A stretch of 64,000 bases of DNA from Achromobacter pestifer (GTDB taxonomy: Bacteria; Pseudomonadota; Gammaproteobacteria; Burkholderiales; Burkholderiaceae_B). Made by a program: the position numbers and the translations under genes. Numbering within the stretch: the stretch's first letter is position 1; every line of letters starts with the position of its first letter. The notes under the pieces are model-generated. The model saw nothing but the letters and a program-made list of their open reading frames with translations, was not told the DNA's origin and did not search any database. The DNA lies in NCBI RefSeq assembly GCF_013267355.1, contig NZ_CP053985.1, positions 3,410,001 through 3,474,000 on the forward strand. The letters run 5' to 3'. Below are positions 45,789-62,018 of this stretch, in pieces.

Positions 45789-46132
45789 TGCGAGGCTCCT
45801 TCAATACTCGCTCGGTCCATTGAATCGACGCCTTCCGCAACGCTGGGGACTCAGGACTAAGAAAGGCGGCTCTGGCGCACAGAGCGATCAGTGTTGCGGC
45901 AAGCCCCTGCCAAGTCAAGCGTATCTGGGACTGCCTCGTCGCCTGGGCCGCCATCCGTTGTCCGCTGCGCATCCACGGGTGTTCGTTCCGTGGGCACAGG
46001 CAGGGAGCAGGGCGGGATCTTGCCCTGGGCAGCCGCATGCTGGCGCGGTTCTTGCTTATGCACGGGGATGCGGCGCGATCCAGCCCGAGGGGCGGGGCGC
46101 AGGCGTAGATACCAAACCACCTGGAGGAAAAA
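45789..46132. promoter_or_regulatory. Divergent gap with sigma-54 promoter
   Basis: A 344-bp gap between the diguanylate cyclase and the acyl-CoA dehydrogenase genes. The only clear signal is the sigma-54 promoter at 46041-46056. A GGGTGTTCG element about 65 bp upstream of it is a possible activator site. No gene or RNA is recognised. Confidence 0.7.
46041..46056 (+). promoter_or_regulatory. Sigma-54 promoter P1
   Basis: TGGCGCG-N4-TTGCT, with exact GG-N10-GC spacing. It lies 77 bp before the start of the acyl-CoA dehydrogenase gene and on the same strand. Confidence 0.82.
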
Positions 46133-47275
46133 GTGAACTTTACCCAGACCGAAGAGCAGGTCATGTTGCGTTCCGCGGTTGAACGGCTCGTACAGTCCTT
46201 GTGCACGCCCGAAAAGGTGCGGCAATGGGACCGCGACGGCACATATCCGGAGGAAGTCTACGCAGCCATGGTGGACGCGGGCTTTGTCTCCATGGTGGTC
46301 CCGGCCGAGTACGGCGGGATGGGCAGCCCGATGTCTGATTGCATCATTCTCTACGAAGAGGTCGCCAAGCCCAGCGTGGACTTTGCCACGCGCATTGCGC
46401 TGCAGGCCTGGGGTTGCTCGATCCTGGCGGATGTGGCGCCAGATGAGTTGAAGCGCGAAATCCTGCCGCGCGTGGCGCAGGGCGAGGCCAAGCTGTCGTT
46501 CAGCCTCACTGAGCCGAGCTCCGGGTCGGATGCGGCGTCGTTGACCACGAGCGCGCGGCGCGACGGCGACGATTGGCTGATCAACGGCCAGAAGGTGTTC
46601 TCCAGCGGCGCGGACGCGCCCGACAACCACATCGTGCTGGCCGTCAGGACCGCGAAGAGCGACAAGCGGCACGATGGCATTTCCCTGTTCCTGGTGCCCA
46701 ACGATCTCAAGGGCATCACCATCCGGCGTCTGGACGTCATCGGCCGCCGCGTGCTGGGCCTGTCGGAAATCTACTTCGACGACGTGCGCGTGCCATCCCG
46801 CTATCTGTTGGGAGAGGAAGGCAAGGGCTGGGGGTATATCGGACGCCATCTGGAACGCGAGCGCATCACGCTCGCGGCGAACTACCTGGGCTGCGCCAGC
46901 AGCGCCTTGAACGACGCCACGATCTACGCCCAGGAAAGAAAGCAGTTCGGGCGTCCCATCGGCCAGTTCCAGGCCATCGCGCACATGCTGGCCGACATGG
47001 CGACCGAGGTGGAGTGCGGCCGCTGGCTGACCGCGATGGCCGCCTGGCGCTATGACAATGGCTTGTCGTGCCGCAAGGAAGCCAGCATGGCCAAGCTCTA
47101 CGTTTCCGAGATGCTTCAGCGGGTCACCGCCTCGGGCATGCAGATTCTGGGCGGACACGCCTACACCACGGATCATGCGATGCAACGGCATTGGCGCGAC
47201 GCCCGCAACGCGACCGTCGGCGGCGGCACCTCGCAGATTCAGCGCGAACTGATCGCGCGGGAATTGGGACTGTAA
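46133..47275 (+). CDS. Acyl-CoA dehydrogenase
   Basis: Acyl-CoA dehydrogenase of 380 aa. Motifs are FSLTEPSSGSDAASLTTSAR near residue 122, QERKQFGRPIGQFQAIAHML near 265, and VGGGTSQIQRELIARELGL at the end. The Glu in RHLERERITLAA is the likely base. The start is GTG 46133 with GGAGG 5 nt upstream. Preceded by sigma-54 promoter P1, it is a single-gene unit of the sigma-54 set and a hairpin follows it. Confidence 0.94.
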   Translation: MNFTQTEEQVMLRSAVERLVQSLCTPEKVRQWDRDGTYPEEVYAAMVDAGFVSMVVPAEYGGMGSPMSDCIILYEEVAKPSVDFATRIALQAWGCSILADVAPDELKREILPRVAQGEAKLSFSLTEPSSGSDAASLTTSARRDGDDWLINGQKVFSSGADAPDNHIVLAVRTAKSDKRHDGISLFLVPNDLKGITIRRLDVIGRRVLGLSEIYFDDVRVPSRYLLGEEGKGWGYIGRHLERERITLAANYLGCASSALNDATIYAQERKQFGRPIGQFQAIAHMLADMATEVECGRWLTAMAAWRYDNGLSCRKEASMAKLYVSEMLQRVTASGMQILGGHAYTTDHAMQRHWRDARNATVGGGTSQIQRELIARELGL

Positions 47276-47288
47276 GCGCTTGACGGCA

Positions 47289-47312
47289 GGGCGGCCCGGT
47301 AGCGGGCCGCCC
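47289..47312. terminator. Bidirectional hairpin terminator
   Basis: Perfect 10-bp stem GGGCGGCCCG/CGGGCCGCCC with a 4-nt loop, between the convergent stops of the dehydrogenase and a Bug gene. Only two T residues follow on the plus strand. Confidence 0.7.
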
Positions 47313-47334
47313 TTGGGGGCGATGAGCCGGCCGC

Positions 47335-48315
47335 CTAGTCGGCGGTGATGCCCACCTTCTTGATGATGGCGCCCCAACGTTCCGTTTCATCGCGGATCAC
47401 CCGGGTCGTTTCTTCCGGCGAGCTGCCCACGGCCTCCATGCCGCGCACGCGCATGGCTTCGCGGAACTTCTCGCTCTTGCCTATATCCATCAACGCCTTG
47501 CTCAGGCGGTCGGTCACCTCCGGCGGCACGTTGGCTGGAGCGAGGATGGCATACCAGCCGAACACGTTGAAGTCCTTCACGCCGGATTCCTCGACCGTGG
47601 GCACGTCGGGCATCAAGGCGCTGCGCGCGCTGTCGGCCACGGCGATGGGGCGGACCTTGCCGGACTGGATAAGCGGCAGCGCGCCTCCCACCGTGGCGAA
47701 TGTCGCGTCGATCCGGCCGCCCAGCAGTTCGGTAAACGCCAGGGACTCGCCCTTGTACGGGATGTGCATGATGGGCATGCCGGTGCGGTCCTTCAGCATT
47801 TCCATCGTCAGATGCGCGGTCGAGGCATTCCCCGCGGATCCATAGTTGAGCGCACTGGGATTCTTCTTCGCCCGGTCGACGAGGTCGGCGACGGTCTTGA
47901 TCGGCTGAGCGGGGTTCGTCACCAGCACCAGCGAGAACTTTGCGATCAAGGATATCGGCGTGAAGTCCTTGAGCGTGTTGTAGGGCAGGTTCGGATACAG
48001 CGTGGTGTTGACGCTGGCCAGGCCTTGGCTGGCCAGCGCCAGGGTGTAGCCGTCGGGGCGTGACTTGGCGACGAAGTCCGTGCCGATGATGCCGCCCGCG
48101 CCGGTGCGGTTTTCGACGATGACGGATTGGCCCAGGCGTTCCGACAGATCCTGGGCCAGCGTGCGGGCCAGGATGTCGGAAAGACCGCCGGCGGCGTAGG
48201 GGGTGATCAGGCGTATGGGCTTGTCCGGATAGCTGCCGGCCGCCGCTTGTCCTTGCAGAGTCAGGCTGGCCAGCAGGACCGCCGCGGCCAGTAGCGGTTT
48301 TCTAAAAATGGGCAT
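47335..48315 (-). CDS. Bug/TctC-type periplasmic binding protein
   Basis: Tripartite tricarboxylate receptor of 326 aa. It has a signal peptide (PLLAAAVLLASLTLQGQAAA), the family start YPDKPIRLITPYAAGGLSDI, and GSAGNASTAHLTMEMLKDRT in the middle. ATG 48315 has GGAG 6 nt upstream; a TTG at 48327 is rejected. Promoter P2 lies 113 bp upstream, so sigma-54 should drive it. No TctA or TctB genes occur nearby, so it must work with a transporter elsewhere or as a sensor component. Confidence 0.94.
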   Translation of the reverse strand: MPIFRKPLLAAAVLLASLTLQGQAAAGSYPDKPIRLITPYAAGGLSDILARTLAQDLSERLGQSVIVENRTGAGGIIGTDFVAKSRPDGYTLALASQGLASVNTTLYPNLPYNTLKDFTPISLIAKFSLVLVTNPAQPIKTVADLVDRAKKNPSALNYGSAGNASTAHLTMEMLKDRTGMPIMHIPYKGESLAFTELLGGRIDATFATVGGALPLIQSGKVRPIAVADSARSALMPDVPTVEESGVKDFNVFGWYAILAPANVPPEVTDRLSKALMDIGKSEKFREAMRVRGMEAVGSSPEETTRVIRDETERWGAIIKKVGITAD

Positions 48316-48427
48316 TCTTATCTCCAATTCCGCTTTTCACCAGCGGAAAACACATATGTAGTTATTGTTCAACCTGCCTCTGCGGGCGGGCTGGCAACAT
48401 GAACGCGAGGCGCGTCGGGGATAACCT

Positions 48428-48443
48428 CGCAACATCCGTGCCA
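48428..48443 (-). promoter_or_regulatory. Sigma-54 promoter P2
   Basis: On the minus strand TGGCACG-N4-TTGCG, with exact GG-N10-GC spacing. It sits in the 232-bp gap upstream of the Bug gene at 47335-48315. Confidence 0.82.
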
Positions 48444-48547
48444 GGGGCTGGCGCCGCCTGCCTGCCCGGCTGGGGAGCTGTCCGCATGCGCGCTGGTGTT
48501 CATGGTCCGATCAGCAGTGTATGGGCCGCGCACAGCAGATGCTCCGT

Positions 48548-49507
48548 CTACTTCCTGCCGAGCCCGTGTTCCTTGACGACTTGCAGCGACAGCGCAAGCT
48601 GCTCCTTCACATAGGCGGAGAATTCGTCGGGGCCGGACGTCGAGATCGAAATGTGGTGAACGGCGAGCGCGCGCGCCACGTCCGGCTGGGCAAGGACGGC
48701 ATTGATCTCCGCGCTCAGCTTCCTGCGCAGTTCCGGCTGCATTCCGGATGGGCCGAAGAATCCGCCCCACGGCACCAGCGGCATGTTGGTGTAGCCGGAA
48801 TCGGTCATCGTGGGCACGTCGGGAAACTGCTCCAGGCGTGTCCGGGTGGTGGTCATGAGCGCGCGCACCTTCCCTTCCTTGATGAAGCCCATGGTCGTGG
48901 TGGGCGTCGCGAACATGACGTCGATCCTGCCGCCCACCAGATCCACCACGGCAGGCGGTTCGCTGTTGTAAGGGATGTGATGCAGCTCCAGGCCGGCCAT
49001 GCCCATCAGCTGCGCCATCGCCACGATGGAGGACGAACTGCCGGACGCATAGGTCAGCTTCTTGGGGTTGGCCCGAGCGTATTCCACGAACGCGCGGGCG
49101 GTCGTGAATGGCAGGCCGGTGTTCACGACCAGCAGGAAGGGGAACTCGCCGACCCGGCCGATGGGAGACAGCTCGGTCAGCGGGTCGTAGATCGGTTTGG
49201 CATTGAAGGTGTTGATGCCGGTGATGGCCGTGTTGGTCGAGAACAGCAGCACGTCGCCCGAGGGATCCGCCTTCATGACCTCCTTGACCGCGATGTATCC
49301 TTCGGCGCCGGGCTTGTTGTCTATCACCACCGCGCGGGACAAGGAGCGGCTCAGGTTTTCTCCGATGATGCGCGCCGCGGTGTCGGTGGCCGAGCCCGAT
49401 TGGAAGGGAACCACGATTCTCAAGGGCCTGTCGGCCGCCTGGGCGCGGCCGGCCAGGAGGGGGGCGGCCAGCATGGCGCCCAGAATGTGTCTTCTGCGAG
49501 GGTTCAC
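48548..49507 (-). CDS. Bug/TctC-type periplasmic binding protein
   Basis: Bug-type receptor of 319 aa with a short, possibly Tat-type signal (NPRRRHILGAMLAAPLLAG, cleaved after AQA). The mature start is RPLRIVVPFQSGSATDTAAR; the usual YPxKP opening is absent. The start is GTG 49507 in a GTGA overlap with the MaoC stop, with GGAG 6 nt upstream. The frame is open further upstream but not coding. It is the last gene of the sigma-54 operon from 52436. Confidence 0.91.
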   Translation of the reverse strand: MNPRRRHILGAMLAAPLLAGRAQAADRPLRIVVPFQSGSATDTAARIIGENLSRSLSRAVVIDNKPGAEGYIAVKEVMKADPSGDVLLFSTNTAITGINTFNAKPIYDPLTELSPIGRVGEFPFLLVVNTGLPFTTARAFVEYARANPKKLTYASGSSSSIVAMAQLMGMAGLELHHIPYNSEPPAVVDLVGGRIDVMFATPTTTMGFIKEGKVRALMTTTRTRLEQFPDVPTMTDSGYTNMPLVPWGGFFGPSGMQPELRRKLSAEINAVLAQPDVARALAVHHISISTSGPDEFSAYVKEQLALSLQVVKEHGLGRK

Positions 49508-49971
49508 GATGTTCTCCGGCGGTACAGCAGGGTGGCCGTCATTTCCTGGGCTACCGTGCCGTCGTGCTTGACGCACTGCCGCTGGAACGTGACGACGCCG
49601 CGATCGGGCTTGCTGCTGGCCTTCTTGTCGACGACCCGTGAATGCAGCCTGATGGTGTCGCCATGCTTGACGGGGTCCATCAGTTTCCAGCCATCGATCT
49701 GCAGCAGGGCCAGCAAAGTGCCGTCGTTCAGGCCGCTGGCGTACTGCAGGCCGCCCATGATGGCGTACACCAGCGGTCCGTGCGCGATGGGTTCGCCGAA
49801 TGGCGTGGTCTTGCAGTATTCGAAATTGGTATGGACTTCGTTGAAGTCGCCCGACAGGCAAGCGAAATTGACGATGTCCGTCTGCGTGATGGTGCGGGCC
49901 GGGCTGACGAATTCCTGGCCGATCTCGAAGTCATCGAAGTACCGGCCGCGTGCGGAGGGAGTCGTGGTCAT
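49504..49971 (-). CDS. MaoC-like hydratase
   Basis: Single hotdog MaoC-type protein of 155 aa. It has FDDFEIGQEFVSPARTITQT at the start and the hydratase-2 motif NFACLSGDFNEVHTNFEYCK followed by PIAHGPLVYAIMGG. Such proteins hydrate 2-enoyl-CoA. ATG 49971 has AAGGA about 10 nt upstream. It is coupled to the Bug gene by GTGA and lies 52 bp after the thiolase-fold gene. Confidence 0.92.
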   Translation of the reverse strand: MTTTPSARGRYFDDFEIGQEFVSPARTITQTDIVNFACLSGDFNEVHTNFEYCKTTPFGEPIAHGPLVYAIMGGLQYASGLNDGTLLALLQIDGWKLMDPVKHGDTIRLHSRVVDKKASSKPDRGVVTFQRQCVKHDGTVAQEMTATLLYRRRTS

Positions 49972-50023
49972 GATTGCGTTGTCCTTGTAATGGTTGCCGG
50001 ATGCGGGCGCAGCCGCGTTGAAT

Positions 50024-51208
50024 TCAGCCTTTCTCGTTGGCCAGGATGGCGGTGCCGTGCGAGGACAGGATGCCGCCCTCGTTGTGCACGAGCGCGACCT
50101 CCGCGCCTTCGACCTGGCGGTCGCCCAGGCCGCCGCGCAATTGGCGCACCGCTTCGACGATGCCGAACAGGCCGCCTGCGGCGCCGGCGTGCGCATGCGA
50201 GAGCATGCCGCCGTGGGTATTGATGGGCAGCTTGCCGCCGATGCGCGCATGTCCCTGCTCGAAGAACGCGCCGCCTTCTCCTGGCTGGCAGAAGCCGAGT
50301 TCCTCGGCCTCCAGGATGGGGACGATGGAGAAGCAGTCGTAGAGCTCGGCCACGTCGATATCGCCGGGCGCGAGTCCCGCCATCTCGTAGGCGATACGCC
50401 CGGATTCGGCCGCGCCGAACTCGGTCAGGCTGGGGGCGCACATCAGATGCTCATGCGTGTGGTATTCGCCTATGCCCTGCAGGTAGGCGGGCTTGCATTT
50501 AAGATCACGCGCGCGCTCGGCGGACGTCACGATGAAGGCGCCGCCGGCATCCGATATCAGGCAGCAATCCAGCATGCCCAGCGGATCGGCGATGGGCTTG
50601 GCCGAGATCACCTGGTCCAACGTCAACGGGGCTTTCATGTGCGCGTTGGGATGCAGCAGGGCGTGCGTGCGCGTGTTCACCGCGACGTGCGCGAGCTGTT
50701 CCCGCGTGGTGCCGTACTTGTGCATGTGGCGCAACGCGATCATGGCGTAGAAGCCGGGTATGGAGGTGCCGTAGGGCTGTTCGAAATAGGGGTGCCCCAC
50801 CGCGGTGAGCGCTGCCACGGCTGCGTCCCGGCTTTGGCCAGTGGCCCGGTTTTCGCCCGCGCAGACCAGGATGGTTTCCGCCTGGCCGCTGACGATGGCC
50901 TGCGCCGCATGCTTGAGCATGACGACCGGGCTGGCGCCGCCCACGATCATCGATGCGTTGAGCCTGGGCTTGATGCCGAGGTACTCGCAGATGACCGATC
51001 CCAGCATGAAGTACGGTTCCGTGAAGGAATAGGCCGTCAGCAGGCCGTCGATGTCGGAAACCTGCAATCCGGCGTCGTCCAGCGCGCGCTTGGCGGCCTG
51101 GGCGTTGAGGCCCAGGCCTGTCATGTGGGGAACCTTGCCGATGTCCGATTCGCCCACGCCGACGATGGCGACTTTGTTCTTTAGCGATGCGCGTTCTTTC
51201 ATAACCAT
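50024..51208 (-). CDS. Thiolase-fold protein (SCP2/Ltp type), catalytic cysteines absent
   Basis: Thiolase-superfamily protein of 394 aa. As in the copy at 15833-16984, the nucleophile position reads MIVGGASPVVML instead of CxSG, and the C-terminal CxGG is replaced by VHNEGGILSS. Paired with DUF35 directly upstream, it is more likely an Ltp2-like aldolase than a thiolase (inference). ATG 51208 is chosen; ATG 51202 is possible. It lies 5 bp after DUF35 in the P3 operon. Confidence 0.9.
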   Translation of the reverse strand: MVMKERASLKNKVAIVGVGESDIGKVPHMTGLGLNAQAAKRALDDAGLQVSDIDGLLTAYSFTEPYFMLGSVICEYLGIKPRLNASMIVGGASPVVMLKHAAQAIVSGQAETILVCAGENRATGQSRDAAVAALTAVGHPYFEQPYGTSIPGFYAMIALRHMHKYGTTREQLAHVAVNTRTHALLHPNAHMKAPLTLDQVISAKPIADPLGMLDCCLISDAGGAFIVTSAERARDLKCKPAYLQGIGEYHTHEHLMCAPSLTEFGAAESGRIAYEMAGLAPGDIDVAELYDCFSIVPILEAEELGFCQPGEGGAFFEQGHARIGGKLPINTHGGMLSHAHAGAAGGLFGIVEAVRQLRGGLGDRQVEGAEVALVHNEGGILSSHGTAILANEKG

Positions 51209-51213
51209 CCCAG

Positions 51214-51624
51214 TCAGGCCTCGGTTCTTTTGAATTGGGGAATCAGGGCGCCATCGCCGCGGTCTTCGAAAACCACGCCGACCTTGTCCCCTATCTGTAC
51301 CGAGAGGGCGTCGCCGCCCACGATGTTGGCGACCATGCGCGGGCCTTCGTCGAGTTCGATCAGCGCCGTGACATAGGGCGTCTTGGACGCAAACGCCGGT
51401 AGCGGCGCGCGGCGGATGATGGAAAAGCTGTAGACGCTGCCCGTGCCCTTGCTTTGGACCCATTCGAGCTGATCCGACCAGCATTCGGGGCAGAGATGGC
51501 GGGGCATGAAATGCAGCGCTCCGCATGCCTTGCATTTCCGGATCAGCAGTTTGCGTTCGCGGGCCCCGTCCCAATAGGGCTGGGAGTCGGCATTGGCGAT
51601 GGGTTGCGGCAGATCCTGGCTCAT
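51214..51624 (-). CDS. DUF35 OB-fold/zinc-ribbon protein, thiolase partner
   Basis: Protein of 136 aa with the zinc ribbon CKACGALHFMPRHLCPECW and an OB-fold (GSVYSFSIIRRAPLPAF, then IGDKVGVVFED). It has an N-terminal helix (PYWDGARERKLLIRK) usual in longer DUF35 members. It is translated by an ATGA overlap with the crotonase gene, and the thiolase-fold gene follows. It is a likely structural partner of that protein. Confidence 0.93.
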   Translation of the reverse strand: MSQDLPQPIANADSQPYWDGARERKLLIRKCKACGALHFMPRHLCPECWSDQLEWVQSKGTGSVYSFSIIRRAPLPAFASKTPYVTALIELDEGPRMVANIVGGDALSVQIGDKVGVVFEDRGDGALIPQFKRTEA

Positions 51625-52436
51625 GCTTGGTCTCCCTGGTTCGCGACCGCCGCGGCGCCCGCGAAATCGGGGCGGCGGCGTTCCAGGGCGGCGTTCAATC
51701 CTTCGCGGAACTCAGGGTTGGACATGGCCAGCACCTGACCGAAGCCTTCGAATGCCAGCATGTCGTGCAGCGAGGTCTCGAAGCTGCGCGCCATGACGGC
51801 TTTGGCCAGCCCCATGACCTCGGCGGGCCCCTCGGCCAGGCGCCTGGCTTCCGCGAGGCCGGCGTCGTACAGGTCCGCATCGGCGACGACCTTGGATACC
51901 AGGCCCAGATCGGCCGCTTCCTGCGCGGAGAACGTGCCGCCGCTGAACAGGAAGTTCTTGGCGCGCGCCATGCCGATCAGGCGCGGCAAGTGGTACATGA
52001 CCGCGATGTCGGGCACCACGCCCAGCCTGAAGAATCCGGACATGAACTTCGCGCTCTCGCCGGCAATGACCACGTCGCCGGTCAGCGCGAGGCCCATGCC
52101 GCCGCCCACCGCATGGCCGTTCACGCCGACGACGACCGGCTTGTCCAGCGTGATCAGCGGCGTGAGCCAACGGCTCAGATTGCGGAAGCGCCGGTGCACG
52201 GTCCACGGATCGCACGCCGTGCGCAGATGATTCAGGTCGCCGCCGGAGCAGAAAGTGGGGCCGTCGCCCGTCAGGAAGACCGCGCGGATGCCGGGCTCGC
52301 GCTCGGCCAGGGCTATCGCCGCGCCGAGCTGCTCGCGCATGTCCATGGTCATCGAGTTCCGGCTTTCCGGGTTCGCCAGGCGGATGATGAGTACGTCTCC
52401 GTCTCTTTGTGTTGCTACCAGCTCCTGTGCTGCCAT
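51621..52436 (-). CDS. Enoyl-CoA hydratase/isomerase (crotonase) family protein
   Basis: Crotonase-fold protein of 271 aa, with TFCSGGDLNHLRTA near residue 65 and GHAVGGGMGLALTGDVVIAG near 107. Both hydratase glutamates appear to be missing (GGGMGLA; MSGFFRLGVVPD). It is the first gene of a five-gene operon with DUF35, thiolase-fold, MaoC and Bug genes. ATG 52436 has GGAG 8 nt upstream. The promoter is P3, an exact sigma-54 consensus. Confidence 0.9.
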   Translation of the reverse strand: MAAQELVATQRDGDVLIIRLANPESRNSMTMDMREQLGAAIALAEREPGIRAVFLTGDGPTFCSGGDLNHLRTACDPWTVHRRFRNLSRWLTPLITLDKPVVVGVNGHAVGGGMGLALTGDVVIAGESAKFMSGFFRLGVVPDIAVMYHLPRLIGMARAKNFLFSGGTFSAQEAADLGLVSKVVADADLYDAGLAEARRLAEGPAEVMGLAKAVMARSFETSLHDMLAFEGFGQVLAMSNPEFREGLNAALERRRPDFAGAAAVANQGDQA

Positions 52437-52475
52437 GTAGGACGCTCCAATGGGTAAAGGGGGTGTTTGCTTAAA

Positions 52476-52491
52476 AGCAAAGTTCGTGCCA
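52476..52491 (-). promoter_or_regulatory. Sigma-54 promoter P3
   Basis: On the minus strand TGGCACG-N4-TTGCT, a perfect match to the -24/-12 consensus. It lies 40 bp upstream of the crotonase start. A GGGTGTACTC element lies about 75 bp further upstream (52566-52575). Confidence 0.9.
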
Positions 52492-52673
52492 GATACGCGT
52501 GACGCGCCGCCGTCCGCGGACCGGAGCCTAGCGGCAGGCGCGCGGGCATCCGGATCGCCTTCCGGGGTGTACTCGCGGCATACATGCGGATGCGGGACTG
52601 TGTTTGCGTGTCTGCGGCGGCGGAACCGCAACGGCCCGCCGGACTGGCTATCGGGGCGGGGAAGCGGGGCTGG

Positions 52674-53456
52674 CTATTTGCGCGCCTGCGCCGCTGCCAG
52701 CGCGCGTTGATGTCCTGGCATGGCCGTGGCCAGCGCGAACGCATCGGCCTCATGGGCCATGGCGCTGTCCATGGGCTGGCTCCAGCTCTGGCGGCTGACT
52801 GATTTGGTCAGCATCAGCGCTTCATGGGGCAGCGCCAGCAGCTCGGCTGCCAAGGCGCGGCTGGCCTCGGCCAGGGTTTCGCGCGGCACCACGCGGCGGG
52901 TCAGGCCGCGCTGGCGGGCCTCTTCGGCATCCATGGCGCCGCCCGTGAGCATCAGGTCCAGGGCGGCGGGCACGCCTAGTTTCGACTGCAGCAGATAGGA
53001 GCAGCCGCCGTCCGGGATCAGGCCCAGGCGCACGAAGGGGAACCGCAGGGTCGCGTCATCCGCCATGACCAGCAGGTCGGCGGCAAGCGCCAGCGAAGCG
53101 CCGCCGCCGGCCGCCGCGCCCTGGACCGACGCGATGACGATCTTGTTCATCCTGATCAGCGCCATGTGGTGTTGCTGCGCAGTCAGGATGCGGTCGCGCC
53201 AGGCCAGTGGGGTCGCCGGCAGATCGCCGGTATCGGCGCCGACGCAGAAGGCGCGGCCCAGCCCTTGCAGCAGCACCACATGGATGTCGGGGTCAGCGGC
53301 GATGTCCTGCAAGTGGACGCCAAACTCGGCGCGCATCGCCGTCGACAGGGCATTGAGTTTTTCGGGGCGGTTCAGCGTCAAGACCGCAAGGCCGCCTGCT
53401 TTTTCCAGCAGGACCGTGGGTTGGGCGTTGGCGTTTTCCTGGTGATGCGCGGGCAT
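52674..53456 (-). CDS. Enoyl-CoA hydratase/isomerase (crotonase) family protein, isomerase-like
   Basis: Crotonase-fold protein of 260 aa. It has AFCVGADTGDLPATPL near residue 66 and GAAAGGGASLALAADLLVMA near 105. The catalytic area reads FPFVRLGLIPDGGCSYLL, where an Asp follows Pro as in PaaG-type isomerases, and both hydratase glutamates are absent. ATG 53456 is 7 nt from AAGGAG; ATG 53459 is the alternative. It is a single-gene unit under P4. Confidence 0.9.
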   Translation of the reverse strand: MPAHHQENANAQPTVLLEKAGGLAVLTLNRPEKLNALSTAMRAEFGVHLQDIAADPDIHVVLLQGLGRAFCVGADTGDLPATPLAWRDRILTAQQHHMALIRMNKIVIASVQGAAAGGGASLALAADLLVMADDATLRFPFVRLGLIPDGGCSYLLQSKLGVPAALDLMLTGGAMDAEEARQRGLTRRVVPRETLAEASRALAAELLALPHEALMLTKSVSRQSWSQPMDSAMAHEADAFALATAMPGHQRALAAAQARK

Positions 53457-53494
53457 CATGCTTCTCCTTGAAGGGGGGGGGTGGTGAGCCTTCA

Positions 53495-53510
53495 AGCAAA
53501 ATGGATGCCA
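53495..53510 (-). promoter_or_regulatory. Sigma-54 promoter P4
   Basis: On the minus strand TGGCATC-N4-TTGCT, with exact GG-N10-GC spacing, 39 bp upstream of the crotonase start. Confidence 0.78.
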
Positions 53511-53618
53511 GCGTTCAACCGCAGCGGCGGGGGGCGGCGAAACTGCGGACCGTGTCCGCGGCGCACGCAGTTCGCACCGCCGGAAGACACGCACTGTGCG
53601 CCGGGGGCGCGGCCCCGT

Positions 53619-54194
53619 TCAGGCTTGGCCTGACGGCCGGTACCACTGCGGGTAATGCTCCTTGACCAGCGGGCCGTCCTCTCTCAACGCGTGGCACGCG
53701 CCGATCTTCAAGGGGCGTTTGGCGGGGTCGGCCTCGTCTTGCGGGGAGATCTTGCCCTGCAGGATCGTCTGCACGGCCAGGGTCGGCAGCAGCGTCGCCA
53801 GCTCGGACAAGTGCGAGCAGCGTTCAGGGGCCGGGATCCGCTTGGCGATTTCCTGGCGGAAGCCCTTGAGCAGGTTCGCGCCGATCAAGCGCTCCAGCCG
53901 CACCTGGGCTTCGGGACAGACGGAGGGAAAGGGCATGCGGTGCATGCCGGCCTCGGCGCCCAGCACGTCCAGGGCTTCGTTGATGGTCACGCGGATCGCC
54001 ATCAGATGTATGGGCACGCCGCAGTCGAAATGCCGCATCTGTGTGGTGAAGGGTTGGGGCTTGACGTCCTCGATCAAGGCCTCCAGGTCCCACAGGCCGT
54101 CCTCGCGCTCGTAGGCCTGCAACTGGATGGTGCGCGAGTGGGAGGATTTTCTGGCGCTGGCAGGGGGGGGAAGAAAATGCGAAGGCGACACCAT
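53619..54194 (-). CDS. DUF2889 domain protein
   Basis: Protein of 191 aa that resembles the DUF2889 family. The N-terminal part has IQLQAYEREDGLWDLEALIE and HFDCGVPIHLMAIRVTINEA. The C-terminal part has a conserved CSHLSELATLLPTLAVQTI segment. No catalytic function is established for the family. ATG 54194 has GGAG 8 nt upstream. It lies 72 bp after the CoA-transferase gene and is probably transcribed from P5. Its repeated company with CoA-ester genes suggests a role tied to the substrate, but this is only inference. Confidence 0.85.
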   Translation of the reverse strand: MVSPSHFLPPPASARKSSHSRTIQLQAYEREDGLWDLEALIEDVKPQPFTTQMRHFDCGVPIHLMAIRVTINEALDVLGAEAGMHRMPFPSVCPEAQVRLERLIGANLLKGFRQEIAKRIPAPERCSHLSELATLLPTLAVQTILQGKISPQDEADPAKRPLKIGACHALREDGPLVKEHYPQWYRPSGQA

Positions 54195-54219
54195 GGGGTG
54201 GTCTCCGTGTCTGGTTCGA

Positions 54220-54246
54220 GGGACCGGGAAGCAGGCTCCCGGTCCC
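54220..54246. terminator. Hairpin between CoA-transferase and DUF2889 genes
   Basis: Perfect 10-bp stem GGGACCGGGA/TCCCGGTCCC with a 7-nt loop, 21 bp after the CoA-transferase stop and within the likely operon. No T tract follows, so it may be an attenuating or mRNA-stabilising hairpin rather than a full terminator. Confidence 0.6.
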
Positions 54247-54266
54247 GCCAAAAGGGAAGGAGGGGC

Positions 54267-55454
54267 CTAGCGGGTGGCGCCGCTCTCGGCGAGCGCGCTG
54301 ATCTCGCTGTCGGACAGTCCGGCCGCGGCAAGAATTTCGCGGCTGTGCTCGCCCAGGCGTGGCGCAAGGCGCTTGACCTCGCTCGGAGTCTTGCCAAACT
54401 TGACGGGCGGCCTGACGTGAGTCAGCACGCCTTCGCTAGGATGTTCCTGTTGCACGAACATGCCGACCGCCGCCAGATGGGGGTCCGTGAACAAGTCCTC
54501 CAGGCTGTTGACCGGCGCGACAGGAATGCTCAGCGGCCGGAGCTGGCTCAGCCATTGCGCGGAGGTCCGTTCGGTCATGATTTCCCCGAGTATCTTGTAC
54601 AGGGTTTCGTAGTTCTGGCTGCGGTGGTTCGGCGTGTCGTAGCGAGGATCCTTCGCCAGGTCATCGCGGCCGACCAGTTGGAAGAAGTCCTTCCAGTTCT
54701 TGTCGGTGTAGGGCAGCACGCACAGATAGCCGTCTCGGGTTCGGTGCGGCTTGCGCAATTGGCTGAGCACTCGCGGATAGCCTGCCTTGCCGTTCTCCGG
54801 GTCGAAAGCCCGTTCCCATTGATGCTCTATCAGCATGAACGAGGCCAGAGACTCGAACATCGGCACTTCGATGCTTTGCCCTTCGCCGGTGCGCAGCTTG
54901 TGGAACAGCGCGGCCAGAATGCTGTAGGCGATGGTCAGGCCGGCGACCTTGTCGCCGATGATGGTGGGCGTGAAACGCGGTTCTCCCGCCAGATGGGCAT
55001 TGACGGAGCACAGGCCGGACACGCCCTGGATCATGTCGTCGTAGGCCGGATCGTCGGCATAGGGGCCGCCTTCGCCAAAGCCATAGGCGCCACAGTAGAC
55101 GATGCCGGGGTTGATCTCCTTGATCTGCGCATAACCCAGGCCTAGCCGTTCGATGGCCGCCGGGCGCATGGCATGGACGAAGACATCGGCCGTCGCCACC
55201 ACGCGCAACAGCGCTGCGCGCGCTTCGGGGGTGCGCAGGTCCAGCATCAGGCTTTTCTTGTTCCGGTTGACCGACAGGTGTATCGGTCCCATCGCCCGGC
55301 TACGGCCCGCGCCCATGTGGCGCATGATGTCGCCGTCGGGACTTTCCACCTTGATGACGTCCGCGCCCATGTCGCCGAAGATCTGGGTGGCATAAGGCCC
55401 CATTACCACTGACGTCAGGTCGACGATCTTGATTTGAGACAAAGGACCAGGCAT
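54267..55454 (-). CDS. CaiB/BaiF family CoA-transferase
   Basis: Family III CoA-transferase of 395 aa, full length. It starts LSQIKIVDLTSVVMGPYATQ and continues with VIKVESPDGDIMRHMG, NRNKKSLMLDL and the GEGQSIEVPMFESLASFML centre. It ends with LGEHSREILAAAGLSD. Promoter P5 lies 135 bp upstream, and the gene is divergent from the sigma-54 activator. It probably activates the growth substrate by CoA transfer at the head of the pathway. Confidence 0.94.
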   Translation of the reverse strand: MPGPLSQIKIVDLTSVVMGPYATQIFGDMGADVIKVESPDGDIMRHMGAGRSRAMGPIHLSVNRNKKSLMLDLRTPEARAALLRVVATADVFVHAMRPAAIERLGLGYAQIKEINPGIVYCGAYGFGEGGPYADDPAYDDMIQGVSGLCSVNAHLAGEPRFTPTIIGDKVAGLTIAYSILAALFHKLRTGEGQSIEVPMFESLASFMLIEHQWERAFDPENGKAGYPRVLSQLRKPHRTRDGYLCVLPYTDKNWKDFFQLVGRDDLAKDPRYDTPNHRSQNYETLYKILGEIMTERTSAQWLSQLRPLSIPVAPVNSLEDLFTDPHLAAVGMFVQQEHPSEGVLTHVRPPVKFGKTPSEVKRLAPRLGEHSREILAAAGLSDSEISALAESGATR

Positions 55455-55725
55455 GACACTCCTCTACGCTTCTTGATGGTTCGTTGGTTTTTTCGTTACA
55501 CAGAAATCGGCTGGTGCGCCCGCAGCCCCGATTGAGGGACAGGCTTCTGCTGCATGGCATCAAATACATTCCTGATGGGTTTCTTTCAAGCAATTTCCAT
55601 GCCATTGCGGACCACGGCGCCGCAGGGGCGGCGGAGCGCCTTGCGTGGCGGGGCATCGGCCGTAAGATGTAGCGCTGGCGCGGCCTGCGGCGCTGCAGCC
55701 GTGGAGTACACTCGTCGCCACCAAC
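55455..55725. promoter_or_regulatory. Divergent gap between CoA-transferase and activator genes
   Basis: A 271-bp gap. It holds sigma-54 promoter P5 (minus strand) and, about 100 bp upstream of it, a GAGTACACTC element (55704-55713) whose reverse complement resembles elements near P3 and P7. No sigma-54 promoter was seen for the activator gene itself. Confidence 0.7.
55589..55604 (-). promoter_or_regulatory. Sigma-54 promoter P5
   Basis: On the minus strand TGGCATG-N4-TTGCT, with exact GG-N10-GC spacing, reading toward the CoA-transferase gene. Confidence 0.85.
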
Positions 55726-57444
55726 ATGCCGCCACGAAAGACACGGAAGGCAGATGCAGAGCGAGAGGATATGGTAAGAGACACCGAAGGGATACTTGTC
55801 CTGGACGAGGGCGCCCAGATTAAATTTTCTTCGGGTTTGGGTACGGAGGAAGTGATTGCGCGGATGCTCTCACGCCTGTGGGCCGATCGTTCCAGCACCC
55901 CGGTCAAACGCCTGTTCGCCCTGCCCGGCATCGAGCCCGCTCACAGTGTCGCTGCGCTGGTTTGCGAGCAAGGCGTGTGTTTCCTGATCTTCTCCGCGGG
56001 CGGGGATGAGCTGACGGAGTTCATCTCCAGCGTCGATTGCGCCGCGGATATCTTCCGTTACTTCATCACCAATCCCTATGAGGCCATGAACGTCGTCGAC
56101 GCGGCGGGCAATCTGCTCTACATGAGCCCGATCCACGAACGTTCGATCGGCTTGAAGCGCGGCGACGCGATCGGCCGGCCGGTCAGCGATGTGATCGAGA
56201 ACACTCGTTTGCAGGAAGTGGTCGTTACGGGCAAGCCGCAGATCGGCGAGGCTCATGAGGCCAAGGGCGTTACCCGTATCGTTTCGCGCATCCCGATCTT
56301 CGACCGCGACAAGAAGCTGGTGGCGGCGATCGGCCAGGTCATGTTCAAGGGTCCGCAGGCGATTCCGCAAGCGATCCAGGACATTTCCAACGAACTCGCC
56401 CGCGTGCGGCAGGAGCGCGATTTCTATAAGCGTGAACTCTCCGGCATACGCAACCGTTCCTACGGGCTGGACCAGATCGTGGGCAGCAGCAAGGCCATCC
56501 GGCAGCTCAAGGAAGATATTCTGCGGGTCGCGCCGCTGGACGTGCCGGTGTTGCTGGTGGGGGAAAGCGGGACGGGCAAGGAGCTGGTGGCGCACGCGCT
56601 GCACATGCTCAGCCCGCGTGGCGACAAGCCGCTGACCCTGATCAATGCGGCCGCGATGCCCATCAGCCTGGTGGAAAGCGAGCTGTTCGGCTATGAAGGC
56701 GGCGCGTTCACCGGCGCCGACAAGCGCGGCCGCAAGGGCAAGTTCGAGCTTTCCGATACCAGCAGCCTGTTCCTCGATGAGATCGGCGATATGCCGATGG
56801 AAATGCAGGTGAAATTGCTGCGCGTATTGCAGGACGGCACGTTCCAGCGCGTGGGCGGCGAACGCCTGCTGCACTCGGATTTCCGCCTGATCTCGGCCAG
56901 CCATCGGGACTTCCAGAAGATGGTTGCGGACAATACGTTCCGCCTGGACCTGTTCTACCGTATCAGCGCCGTGACGCTCTACCTGCCCTCGCTACGGGAC
57001 CGGCCCGAGGATATTCCCGAGCTGGCCGATACCTTCCTGACCGCCTTTGCCAAGCGCCAAGGCGTGGCCAAGAAGTCCATCGACGACCATGTCATCCAGT
57101 ACCTGCAATCGCGCAGCTGGCCGGGCAATGTGCGTCAGCTGCAGCACGCGGTGGAGCGGGCGGCGATATTCAGCGACGGCAGCCGCCTGACGCTGGAGAG
57201 CTTCGGCGGTCTGGAGCATCCGGGTGGCATCGGGGCCGAGAAGGAGTACCGCCCCTTGCAGGCCACCGCGGGCTCGGGCCGCTTCGACATGTGGGAAGCG
57301 AAGCAGCGCGTCGAGATGGAGCTGATCGCGGACGCCATGGAGCGCACCGGCGGCAACAAGAAGCGGGTCGCCGAGGAGCTGGGAATTTCCCGCTCCTATC
57401 TGTATAAGCAGCTGCGCCTGATGGAAGGCGGCAAGGAGAGCTGA
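55726..57444 (+). CDS. Sigma-54-dependent transcriptional activator (PAS, AAA+, Fis-type HTH)
   Basis: Enhancer-binding protein of 572 aa. A sensory N-terminal part includes a PAS-like domain at about residues 115-210 (NVVDAAGNLLYMSP). The AAA+ domain has Walker A GESGTGKELVAHALH near residue 279, the sigma-54 contact loop GAFTGA near 326, and Walker B SLFLDEIGDMP near 347. A Fis-type helix-turn-helix ends the protein (GGNKKRVAEELGISRSYLYK). The start is uncertain (ATG 55726 or ATG 55771, neither with ideal ribosome-site spacing). No receiver domain is present, so it probably senses a ligand. It is the natural activator for P1-P7. Confidence 0.95.
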   Translation: MPPRKTRKADAEREDMVRDTEGILVLDEGAQIKFSSGLGTEEVIARMLSRLWADRSSTPVKRLFALPGIEPAHSVAALVCEQGVCFLIFSAGGDELTEFISSVDCAADIFRYFITNPYEAMNVVDAAGNLLYMSPIHERSIGLKRGDAIGRPVSDVIENTRLQEVVVTGKPQIGEAHEAKGVTRIVSRIPIFDRDKKLVAAIGQVMFKGPQAIPQAIQDISNELARVRQERDFYKRELSGIRNRSYGLDQIVGSSKAIRQLKEDILRVAPLDVPVLLVGESGTGKELVAHALHMLSPRGDKPLTLINAAAMPISLVESELFGYEGGAFTGADKRGRKGKFELSDTSSLFLDEIGDMPMEMQVKLLRVLQDGTFQRVGGERLLHSDFRLISASHRDFQKMVADNTFRLDLFYRISAVTLYLPSLRDRPEDIPELADTFLTAFAKRQGVAKKSIDDHVIQYLQSRSWPGNVRQLQHAVERAAIFSDGSRLTLESFGGLEHPGGIGAEKEYRPLQATAGSGRFDMWEAKQRVEMELIADAMERTGGNKKRVAEELGISRSYLYKQLRLMEGGKES

Positions 57445-57461
57445 GTCCCAGCCCCGGGGTG

Positions 57462-58640
57462 TCAGGACTGCACAACCCCGGCGTTGAACAGCTCCTGCTG
57501 CCGCGCGGCATCCAAACCGAGTTCGTCCAGGATTTGCCGGGTGTGCTCGCCGCGGCGCGGCGAGCGCTTTTCCTGGCTGCCGGGTGCCTCCGTGCCCGGC
57601 AGCCGGGCGATCGGCACGCGGCATGGGCCGCCTTGCTCGCTCATCGCGAATATCCGCTGTTGTTCAACCTGTGCGTCGGCCAGGAAGCCCGCGTAGTCGG
57701 AGACTTTCCCGCAGACCACGCCATGCCGGTTCAGGCACTCGACCCAATGCGCCGTCGGCTTGGCGCGGAAGATCCGTATCAGCGTTGAATTGATCTCCTC
57801 GCCGTGGGCGTGACGTCCGGTCGCCGTGCTCAGCCGCGGGTCGGCGAGCCAGTCGTCCTGTCCTATGGCCTGGCACAGGCCGGCGAACATCCGGTCGTGC
57901 AGCGAGGTGACGTTGACATGCCCGTCCTCGGTCTCGAAGGTGCCAGCCGGCACGCTCAGCGCCTGCACGGCGCGTCCGGCATTGAGGGCTTCGTCGATGA
58001 TCGCGCCGCTTTGCACCGCGGCCGCGGCTTCCAGCAGGGAGACCTGCACCCTTGAGCCCTGGCCCCGCGCGGCGCGGCGGTATAGCGCCGCGCCCGTGGC
58101 CTGCGCCGCATAGATGCCCGTCGCCACGTCGATCAGCAGGATGCCGACCTTGCGCGGCGCGCCGCGCGCGTCGCGGTTGACCACCATCATGCCGCTCATG
58201 GCCTGCAGCGTCGAATCCGATCCCGGCCGTTCGGCATAGGGGCCGTCCGGACCGAAGGCGGACACCGAGACATACACCTGATCGGGCCTGGCTTTCGAGA
58301 GTTCGGCGTATGACAGGCCCAGGCGCTCCATGACGCCAGGGCGGAAGCTCTCTATGACGACGTCGGCCCGCAACGCAAGCTGGCGCAAGAGGCCGCGGCC
58401 GGCCTCGGTCTGGGCGTCGACGCAGATCGAACGCTTGCCCAGGTTGTAGGCAATGGCAAGCGCGCTCATGCCTTCGGTCTGATGGCCTATGGCGCGGCTC
58501 CAGTCGCCGGCAGGCGATTCCGCTTTGATGACCTCGGCGCCTTGCTCCAACAGGAGCATGGCGCAGTAAGGTCCGGCGACTCCCTGGCTGAGATCCAGGA
58601 CGTGCAATCCGGCGTAGGGCTTATCGGGCGAGGCGGGCAT
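57462..58640 (-). CDS. CaiB/BaiF family CoA-transferase
   Basis: Family III CoA-transferase of 392 aa. It starts YAGLHVLDLSQGVAGPYCAM, then EVIKAESPAGDWSRAIG, NLGKRSICVDAQ and a GQGSRVQVSLLEAAAAVQ centre. ATG 58640 has AGGAG 9 nt upstream; the open frame continues about 180 codons further upstream but those are not coding. Promoter P6 lies 62 bp upstream. It is convergent with the activator gene, with only 17 bp between the stops. Confidence 0.94.
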   Translation of the reverse strand: MPASPDKPYAGLHVLDLSQGVAGPYCAMLLLEQGAEVIKAESPAGDWSRAIGHQTEGMSALAIAYNLGKRSICVDAQTEAGRGLLRQLALRADVVIESFRPGVMERLGLSYAELSKARPDQVYVSVSAFGPDGPYAERPGSDSTLQAMSGMMVVNRDARGAPRKVGILLIDVATGIYAAQATGAALYRRAARGQGSRVQVSLLEAAAAVQSGAIIDEALNAGRAVQALSVPAGTFETEDGHVNVTSLHDRMFAGLCQAIGQDDWLADPRLSTATGRHAHGEEINSTLIRIFRAKPTAHWVECLNRHGVVCGKVSDYAGFLADAQVEQQRIFAMSEQGGPCRVPIARLPGTEAPGSQEKRSPRRGEHTRQILDELGLDAARQQELFNAGVVQS

Positions 58641-58701
58641 GGGGTGGGGCTCCTGAGCAAGTCTGGCGTGTCCGGGCTTTCCCGGATGTGTTTGGGTATG
58701 A

Positions 58702-58717
58702 AGCAAAACCCGTACCA
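58702..58717 (-). promoter_or_regulatory. Sigma-54 promoter P6
   Basis: On the minus strand TGGTACG-N4-TTGCT, one change from consensus in the -24 element, with exact GG-N10-GC spacing. It reads toward the CoA-transferase gene at 57462-58640. Confidence 0.8.
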
Positions 58718-58862
58718 CGGGGGTAAGCGCCGCGGATGCTTGTCCTGCCGCGCCGCGAGTGTCCTCATAGTACGCATATGTGTTCACCCAGGAGGCAGGG
58801 GCTGGCGGCGGGCTGGCGGTCGCAGTGCTGCGTTGTCGGAGGGTGCGCTGCGAGACCGGGCC

Positions 58863-58878
58863 TGGCATGGAATTTGCG
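58863..58878 (+). promoter_or_regulatory. Sigma-54 promoter P7
   Basis: TGGCATG-N4-TTGCG, with exact GG-N10-GC spacing, 55 bp before the Bug gene start. A GAGTGTCCTC element lies about 100 bp upstream (58757-58766), between P6 and P7. Confidence 0.8.
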
Positions 58879-58932: not shown

Positions 58933-59916
58933 ATGAACCATGCAATCAACAAGATGGCCACCCGAGTGGCCGCGATAACGTTGGCAGCGCTTACCGCGAC
59001 CAGCGCTTGGGCCGCCGAATATCCGAGCAAGCCGATCAGGATGATCGTGCCGTTCGCGGCGGGCGGGCCGACCGACACGCTGGCGCGCAGCCTGGCCGAG
59101 GCGATGACGGAACAGCTAGGCCAGAAAGTGATCGTGGAAAACAAGCCAGGCGTGGGCGGGAACGTAGGCACGGCCCAGTTTGCGCGCATGGCCCCCGACG
59201 GCTACGCGGTGCTGCTGGTCACCAACGGTCCGCTGGTGGCCAATCAGCTGATGTTCAAGAACCTGGGCTTCGATCCGAAGAAGGACCTGGATCCTGTCTC
59301 CTTCGTGGCCTATCTGCCCAATATGGTCGCCGTGCATCCCAGCGTGCCGGCAAAGACCATCAAGGAGCTGATCGCGCTGCTGAAGGCGAACCCCGACAAG
59401 TACAGCTTCGCATCGGGCGGGGACGGCACCAGCACCCACTTTGCCGGCGAATTGATGAAGTCCATGGCGGGCGTGCAGATGACGCACATTCCCTACAAGG
59501 GGGATGGCGCTTCGATGCCGGACGTCGTCGGCGGACAGGTGCCCATCGTGTTCGGCAGCATCTTTGCCGCCAAGCGCTTCGTCGACGGCGGCATGCTCAG
59601 GGGATTGGCGGTGACGTCCCTGGACCGGGTCCCGTCCATGCCGGACATGCCGACGGTGGCTGAATCCGGCTTGCCCGGCTACGACCTGACCGCCTGGTAC
59701 GGCGTGGTGGTCCCCGCGGGTACGCCCAAGCCCATCGTCAACAAGCTGAGCCAGACCATCGCCCGGGTCGTGGCGTCGCCGGATTTCCGTGTGCGGGTCG
59801 AGGGGATGAGCGGCATACCGAAAAGCACCACCCCAGAAGAGTTCGCCGCCTTCATGGAGTCGGAGCGTCCCAAGTGGAAGAAGCTCATCGAGGATTCGGG
59901 AATCAAGATCAACTAG
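58933..59916 (+). CDS. Bug/TctC-type periplasmic binding protein
   Basis: Bug-type receptor of 327 aa with a signal peptide ending TATSAWAAE and the family start YPSKPIRMIVPFAAGGPTDT. Later blocks are FASGGDGTSTHFAGELMKSM and VAESGLPGYDLTAWYGVVVP. ATG 58933 has AGGAG 5 nt upstream; the frame is open upstream but unsupported. It is the first gene of the P7 unit, followed by an SDR gene after 40 bp. It is the third Bug protein in the sigma-54 set. Confidence 0.94.
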   Translation: MNHAINKMATRVAAITLAALTATSAWAAEYPSKPIRMIVPFAAGGPTDTLARSLAEAMTEQLGQKVIVENKPGVGGNVGTAQFARMAPDGYAVLLVTNGPLVANQLMFKNLGFDPKKDLDPVSFVAYLPNMVAVHPSVPAKTIKELIALLKANPDKYSFASGGDGTSTHFAGELMKSMAGVQMTHIPYKGDGASMPDVVGGQVPIVFGSIFAAKRFVDGGMLRGLAVTSLDRVPSMPDMPTVAESGLPGYDLTAWYGVVVPAGTPKPIVNKLSQTIARVVASPDFRVRVEGMSGIPKSTTPEEFAAFMESERPKWKKLIEDSGIKIN

Positions 59917-62000: not shown

Positions 62001-62018
62001 GGGATATGTCCTGCCTTC

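Follow-up and report, generated by a model that had tools for sequence, protein, structure and literature searches.

A 15-kb stretch of the window (the whole 64,000-nt stretch of DNA that was analysed), from an Achromobacter-type genome, contains 13 predicted genes for the breakdown of an organic acid, arranged in seven transcription units, and, amid these, the gene for a sigma-54 activator, or enhancer-binding protein (EBP), here designated EBP1:

46133–47275, plus strand: acyl-CoA dehydrogenase (ACAD; PF00441, PF02770, PF02771)
47335–48312, minus strand: Bug/TctC solute-binding protein 1 (Bug1; PF03401)
48548–49507, minus strand: Bug/TctC solute-binding protein 2 (Bug2; PF03401)
49504–49971, minus strand: MaoC-type hydratase (PF01575)
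50024–51202, minus strand: thiolase-fold protein with an aldolase-type active site (YDCF at 288; the position of the thiolase nucleophile Cys is occupied by Gly)
51214–51624, minus strand: Zn-ribbon OB-fold (DUF35) partner (OB; PF12172, PF01796; C-x2-C-x10-C-x2-C; best PDB match 6ok1_B)
51621–52436, minus strand: enoyl-CoA hydratase/isomerase family protein 1 (ECH1; PF00378)
52674–53459, minus strand: enoyl-CoA hydratase/isomerase family protein 2 (ECH2; PF00378)
53619–54194, minus strand: DUF2889 protein (PF11136; the longer ORF 53619–54251 was scanned)
54267–55454, minus strand: family III CoA-transferase 1 (CoAT1; PF02515)
55726–57444, plus strand: sigma-54 activator EBP1 (two N-terminal alpha/beta domains, AAA+ with GAFTGA, Fis-type HTH)
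57462–58640, minus strand: family III CoA-transferase 2 (CoAT2; PF02515)
58933–59916, plus strand: Bug/TctC solute-binding protein 3 (Bug3; PF03401)
59966–60736, plus strand: short-chain dehydrogenase (SDR; PF13561)

No transporter membrane part was found among the 16 proteins scanned with Pfam, and the literature passage on DUF2889 gave no function for it. The presence of a sigma-54 activator amid the units, claimed in the first-pass annotation, was borne out: EBP1, whose true start may be 55771, has an AAA+ sigma-54 interaction domain (Pfam Sigma54_activat, with GAFTGA at residues 326–331), the AAA+ lid and a Fis-type HTH. Its relatives are numerous (4688 found), with only generic names among the 120 listed, and its structure prediction had low overall confidence (pTM 0.38).

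The same annotation attributed seven -24/-12 elements to these units; all are present, with minus-strand coordinates there one base off:

46041–46055, plus strand: promoter of the ACAD unit, TGGCGCGGTTCTTGC
48429–48443, minus strand: promoter of Bug1, TGGCACGGATGTTGC
52477–52491, minus strand: promoter of the five-gene unit ECH1-OB-aldolase-MaoC-Bug2, TGGCACGAACTTTGC
53496–53510, minus strand: promoter of ECH2, TGGCATCCATTTTGC
55590–55604, minus strand: promoter of CoAT1-DUF2889, TGGCATGGAAATTGC
58703–58717, minus strand: promoter of CoAT2, TGGTACGGGTTTTGC
58863–58877, plus strand: promoter of Bug3-SDR, TGGCATGGAATTTGC

All seven are TGGCAC-N5-TTGC-like with GG-N10-GC spacing, are intergenic and face the expected start codon, 36–135 nt upstream of it. 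Scanning the window with the strict sigma-54 pattern TGGYRYN5TTGC retrieved eight matches (1.54 expected; maximum of five in 50 Markov shuffles), seven of which are the claimed sites; seven of the eight fall within 46.0–60.75 kb. The pattern TGGCACN5TTGC occurs without mismatches only twice in the window, both times at claimed sites, and with up to two mismatches it is not enriched (79 found versus 91.5 expected), that scan being uninformative.

Upstream of each claimed promoter there is also a dyad, TGY-N11-ACA, centred 51–98 bp before the -24 box, which is a putative enhancer site of the NifA/PrdR type and a predicted binding site:

45980–45996: dyad of the ACAD promoter (TGC-N11-ACA on the minus strand; the weakest of the set)
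48518–48534: dyad of Bug1 (TGT-N11-ACA)
52568–52584: dyad of the five-gene unit ECH1-OB-aldolase-MaoC-Bug2 (TGTA-N9-TACA)
53553–53569: dyad of ECH2 (not exact in A. insolitus L001)
55694–55710: dyad of CoAT1-DUF2889 (internal AGTGTACTCCA identical in all six aligned loci)
58760–58776: dyad common to the divergent CoAT2 and Bug3 promoters
58781–58797: second dyad of the CoAT2/Bug3 region, 21 bp from the first

In the window, the dyad accompanies 7/7 claimed promoters and 0/8 other promoter-like matches. All 13 upstream regions analysed, which come from three lineages, contain it (20 sites versus 2.1 expected), a test not fully independent, as the N11 dyad was first spotted by a motif search on the same regions. 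Among spacings N4–N18 in these regions N11 is the peak, with N14 as runner-up (seven sites). An unconstrained 20-bp motif search returned TGT...ACA with a score of 262, whereas controls reached at most 218; palindrome-constrained searches gave weaker, inconsistent motifs and were discarded. In 11 loci left out of motif discovery, the dyad is found at 20 of 28 strict promoters, versus 8% of random positions, with other spacings also raised at these promoters (N7, 10/28; N13, 9/28). Judged from the sequence, the dyad would be stronger evidence for a regulon than anything in the first-pass annotation, and the EBP subfamily thereby gains a predicted operator (AGTGT-N11-ACACT-like) and target set.

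Four of the seven promoters recur in every one of the six aligned loci, which include the window and extend to Verticiella and strain PBA: those of ECH2, CoAT2 and Bug3-SDR are each present in all six, and the CoAT1 element is weaker in PBA (CTGC for TTGC). The Bug1 and five-gene-unit promoters are kept in L001, L021 and L023. The ACAD promoter is present in L021, but its position is not conserved in A. insolitus or A. insuavis; in L001 and L023 a different element (TGGCCCGAATTTTGC) lies at a greater distance upstream. In PBA (L024), the gene that the Bug3 promoter faces encodes a Bug protein with only about 40% identity. Across lineages the genes stay together as a set, whereas the operon layout changes: ECH2, SDR, ECH1, OB, ACAD and aldolase lie behind one promoter in PBA, as do ECH2 to Bug1 in Verticiella (L022), and L084 has five promoters for 11 of the 13 genes. 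Four or five dyad promoters also occur beside relatives of EBP1 in L081 (which has two activators), L084 and L086 (where one of five is a loose match). Conversely, in six loci that have module genes and no EBP in the stretch, those genes are not preceded by a strict promoter with a dyad; two of these loci (L115 and L116) are in genomes with related EBPs elsewhere, and 14 of the 21 known aldolase copies were examined.

About 15 kb from EBP1, beside a second operon, lies the gene for a paralogous activator, EBP2, with the same operator type. The first-pass annotation placed the seven units at 46.1–60.7 kb, but the regulon probably continues past 60.7 kb: beyond it are both this activator and a promoter bearing the same dyad. 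EBP2 probably controls the adjoining ring-cleavage-like operon through this kind of site. It is conceivable, if doubtful, that the promoters are sigma-54 promoters under EBP2 or under both paralogues, in one regulon with two activators and at least eight promoters. The two proteins are 55% identical, with nearly identical recognition helices (SRSYLYKQL in EBP1 and SRSYLYKRL in EBP2), the promoter of cluster 2 (L004:9223, minus strand) has TGT-N11-ACA, as does the L001 copy, and both activators co-occur in 4/4 genus genomes having EBP1 and also in Verticiella. However, EBP1 lies within cluster 1, a location that it keeps in L021–L024, and paralogous EBPs may retain distinct flanking preferences. 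The genome contains two rpoN genes and 12 strong EBP domains, and EBP2 or another of the latter might bind the same sites.

That the unit degrades one defined carboxylic acid, taken up through Bug proteins, as previously proposed, is a fair guess. As for the chemistry, the "thiolase" resembles retro-aldolases of the Sal type: it contains the YDC(Y/F) Tyr and Cys and, where CtSal has Gly replacing the SCP-2 thiolase nucleophile, an aligned Gly, from which aldolase activity is predicted. An ordinary beta-oxidation route (e.g., benzylsuccinate-like), with a true OB-type thiolase and no retro-aldolase pathway, would agree with the CoA-transferases, ACAD, hydratases, SDR and thiolase/OB pair, presumably comparable to the bbs set, and with weak matches to the models for BbsB (156 bits) and BbsA (49 bits). 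We nevertheless consider such a route unlikely, as these scores are far under the cut-offs (750 and 250), which leaves the protein outside the BbsB thiolase family, and it has YDCF and a Gly aligned with that of CtSal, which a passage of PMC12329534 describes as incapable of thiolysis because of the Gly replacement. A steroid substrate, an idea prompted by the Sal match, was not adopted.

A genome scan for a strict promoter with a dyad (TGT-N11-RCA or TGC-N11-ACA) within 25–85 bp found 13 places in 7.18 Mb, seven of them inside 27 kb here, and none genome-wide with the patterns reversed. Six lie outside the island, at least one of them (L092) upstream of an open frame, and there may be further targets outside the island. 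That the -24/-12 elements are chance look-alikes, with the units really read from sigma-70 promoters, is extremely improbable: the strict pattern has 361 matches genome-wide (108 when reversed), many necessarily due to chance, and GG-N10-GC spacing alone is not enriched in the window (1524 found versus 1550 expected), but the seven matches have the right position and strand, most are conserved, and they carry a second element, the dyad.

The best explanation, and a highly probable one on this evidence, is that a single local activator, EBP1, controls a compact catabolic regulon. Each unit appears to have its own sigma-54 start site and matching activator site; the seven promoters most likely form one EBP regulon, and a single sensor, the activator encoded amid them, probably switches on the whole set. 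The earlier proposal of a single sigma-54 regulon centred on one activator thus has strong support from the common dyad, the footprints in other genera and the six EBP-free loci without such promoters. EBP1 would sense a pathway compound via its N-terminal domains, bind the dyads 51–98 bp upstream of each -24/-12 element and, through its GAFTGA AAA+ engine, open sigma-54 polymerase at the seven promoters, so that three Bug binding proteins would be induced together with ten enzyme or accessory genes. The acid would be activated by CoA-transferase, desaturated and hydrated, and its cleavage would be a Sal-like retro-aldol reaction, as the residues suggest.

More tentatively, a catabolic module that is free of sigma-54 control in other genera of the family may have been rewired: an EBP would have joined it, with cassettes of enhancer and -24/-12 element before every unit in lineage-specific operon layouts (one promoter for six genes in PBA, five in L084, seven in Achromobacter), and a paralogue of this EBP, with an operator of the same type, would couple it to the second, ring-cleavage-like operon, so that two sensors would govern one regulon with at least eight promoters for a retro-aldol route. 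Because these enzymes occur both with sigma-54 promoters (one, five or seven) and without any, they offer a comparative system in which to ask how a regulon is built up one promoter at a time; should the aldolase assignment be right, a protein of several genera annotated in the thiolase family does a different reaction.

No description of such a regulator or cluster was found in titles and abstracts of the open-access literature. Large EBP regulons have already been published, and in the nif cluster of diazotrophs several sigma-54 operons are packed around one EBP, NifA, with the UAS TGT-N10-ACA. Our locus likewise has several operons around one EBP, with a TGT/ACA dyad upstream of each, but its spacer is 11 rather than 10, its genes are catabolic and its sensor domains are different. 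Calling the seven-promoter layout unusual was only partly right, and overstated, because the architecture is known and multi-promoter versions recur beside EBP1 relatives. In the Clostridiales, as reported in a passage of PMC6615313, EBP regulons comprise a single operon for 170 of 263 EBPs, or else two to six, unlike the seven beside the activator gene here, and the promoter consensus for PrdR and other EBP groups is TTGGCATNNNNNTTGCT. PrdR (NF041552) is the best NCBIfam match of EBP1, but at 371 bits against a cut-off of 795, outside that family. The adjoining operon 2, and only this operon, resembles the Castellaniella defragrans monoterpene island and BadI-type ring cleavage (passage in PMC4109377) in having ligase, ACAD, ECH, SDR and a BadI/MenB-like protein; unlike in BadI-type ring cleavage, this last protein is under the NCBIfam cut-offs (BadI, 202 versus 468; MenB models slightly higher, 235 versus 380). 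With the steroid side-chain retro-aldolases Sal/Shy and Ltp2/ChsH2 (PDB 9myr and 6ok1; passage in PMC12329534) the island shares a thiolase-fold protein with a DUF35 partner, YDC(F/Y) and Gly at the nucleophile position, but it has a separate MaoC gene, a C4 zinc finger instead of the C3H1 of CtShy, and 4u4e as best PDB match of the thiolase-fold protein. The regulon adds another case to the known EBP architecture, with a good natural control in the activator-free loci.

All seven -24/-12 elements that the first-pass annotation had placed at 46041–58878 are present, although its minus-strand coordinates are shifted by one base. Across the 64-kb window, the strict pattern TGGYRYN5TTGC has eight matches against an expectation of 1.54 (no more than 5 in any of 50 Markov shuffles), and seven of these are the claimed sites; as had been proposed, each is intergenic and aimed at a gene, with a start codon in the correct direction 36–135 nt away. 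In the window, the GG-N10-GC rule alone is without power (1524 matches versus 1550 expected), and a consensus scan allowing up to two mismatches showed no enrichment (79 versus 91.5 expected). The seven units comprise thirteen genes:

ACAD, acyl-CoA dehydrogenase
Bug1, solute-binding protein
ECH1-OB-aldolase-MaoC-Bug2, with an enoyl-CoA hydratase/isomerase family protein (ECH1) and a DUF35 partner (OB)
ECH2
CoAT1-DUF2889, with a family III CoA-transferase (CoAT1)
CoAT2
Bug3-SDR

The DUF2889 protein (53619–54251) is present in the Achromobacter and PBA loci; at the identity threshold applied, the Verticiella locus yielded no counterpart.

Fifteen upstream regions were searched for motifs, which led to a dyad, TGY-N11-ACA (e.g., AGTGTCTGCGCCGAAGACACT and AGTGTACTTGATGAGTACACT). 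It occurs in all 13 upstream regions of the set used for counting (six from the window, three from Verticiella and four from strain PBA, divergent pairs counted once), with 20 sites versus 2.1 expected, and in 3% of 264 control tiles; spacing N11 stands out among N4 to N18, the next best being N14 with seven sites. A looser promoter pattern has 15 matches in the window, and a dyad lies within 200 bp upstream of 7/7 claimed promoters versus 0/8 of the others. Because the motif was derived from these same regions, we tested it in 11 unused loci around more distant activator relatives, where 20 of 28 strict promoters have a dyad at 35–150 bp, versus 8% of 3000 random positions; two of these loci lack any strict promoter, divergent pairs have upstream DNA in common, and other spacings were raised too (N7, 10/28; N13, 9/28). 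The dyad is the predicted enhancer, the missing half of the promoter architecture. Dyads are often paired (58760–58797 in the window; also in the Verticiella and PBA loci), with 19–33 bp between the two, and 21 bp in three cases.

The activator EBP1 (55726–57444) contains a sigma-54 interaction domain, a lid and a Fis-type HTH; in its GAFTGA motif (326–331), four residues are invariant and two are conserved at 90% or more in an alignment of 40 relatives. The consensus of these relatives starts at an internal ATG (55771; start of the ORF 55726), which may be the true start; a weaker dyad (55727–55743) and the CoAT1 dyad (55694–55710) would then lie just upstream, making autoregulation possible. 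No strict element was seen before the activator gene in the window; strain PBA has an element there (L024:9728–9742), with no dyad found upstream. The genome contains two rpoN genes (G000:C2:2496992–2497459 and 6170078–6170548; Sigma54_DBD).

The window occupies positions 3,410,001–3,474,000 of a 7.09-Mb contig (genome, 7.18 Mb). The activator or a paralogue occurs in 15/268 genomes of the family (E 1e-140 or better), and EBP1 proper in 4/43 of the genus, including the window's own; the nearest named relatives are Achromobacter, and EBP1 is 99% identical in A. xylosoxidans B_1. In A. insolitus, the cluster sits on a 369-kb plasmid together with the greater part of the neighbouring one; this is therefore accessory DNA. 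We aligned six loci: the window, three other Achromobacter, Verticiella (EBP 79% identical) and strain PBA (86%). The ECH2, CoAT1, CoAT2 and Bug3 promoters are present in all six, although the CoAT1 element of PBA fits less well, and the PBA element at the Bug3 site points at a Bug protein of only ~40% identity; the exact dyad was not found at the A. insolitus ECH2 promoter. The ECH1 and Bug1 promoters are shared by all four Achromobacter loci. The window's ACAD promoter recurs in only one of the others (L021); the remaining two instead have a more upstream element (TGGCCCGAATTTTGC), each accompanied by one dyad. The grouping of the genes into operons differs between lineages: in PBA one promoter precedes ECH2, SDR, ECH1, OB, ACAD and aldolase, and in Verticiella one precedes ECH2 to Bug1, ACAD and SDR orthologues not being found within the stretch examined. 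Locus L084, beside a relative of the activator, has 11 of the 13 genes in another order, served by five promoters with dyads; CoAT1 and DUF2889 were not found there.

A paralogue of EBP1, EBP2 (55%), lies ~15 kb to its right beside an operon for a CoA-transferase, AMP-ligase, ECH, BadI/MenB-like protein, SDR, ACAD and 3-hydroxyacyl-CoA dehydrogenases, with one strict promoter, likewise with TGT-N11-ACA. The 3′ end of this operon (60786–63800; periplasmic binding protein and quinone oxidoreductase-like gene) lies at the right end of the window, so the functional unit continues past it. Genome-wide, a promoter with a dyad at 25–85 bp, a range that leaves out the CoAT1 site, occurs at 13 places, seven of them within 27 kb here.

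The aldolase has 21 copies in 19/268 genomes of the family (E 1e-120 or better); we viewed the surroundings of 14, seven of which served as test loci. One (L114) has strict promoters and dyads directly before a MaoC-OB-aldolase unit and before the divergent unit, with an activator 3.7 kb outside the stretch. The other six stretches (two under 20 kb) contain no EBP, and no strict promoter with dyad was found before their module genes; two strict matches, one of them with a dyad, lie elsewhere in L117, and the host genomes of L115 and L116 have related EBPs at other places. Sigma-54 promoters thus track the nearby activator, not the enzymes.

The aldolase gene product (50024–51202), a 'thiolase', best matches 4u4e, an uncharacterised 'Thiolase', and then the Sal and Ltp2 aldolases (9myr, 6ok1). 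A YDCF motif stands at 288, and a Gly is aligned with the CtSal Gly that replaces the SCP-2 thiolase nucleophile; the equivalent Tyr and Cys of CtSal are described as catalytic, with thiolysis excluded (PMC12329534). The zinc finger of the OB partner is of the C4 type. From the enzyme set and these residues, we propose that the substrate is activated by CoA transfer, desaturated, hydrated and then split by a retro-aldol reaction. An alicyclic acid is suggested as substrate by the BadI/MenB-like neighbour, as a lead only, because MenB models score slightly above BadI and all fall below the cut-off.

The predicted organization of the island as one sigma-54 regulon is, at the level of sequence comparison, confirmed, and strengthened by the dyads and the activator-linked distribution of promoters. 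It had also been called unusual, which holds in that seven operons beside the regulator gene are at the large end, but the kind is already known: nif clusters have the same look. EBP regulons of 6, 9 and 12 operons are on record (PMC4641369), and those described in Clostridiales reach up to six (PMC6615313); seven operons beside the gene are thus large, but not outside experience.
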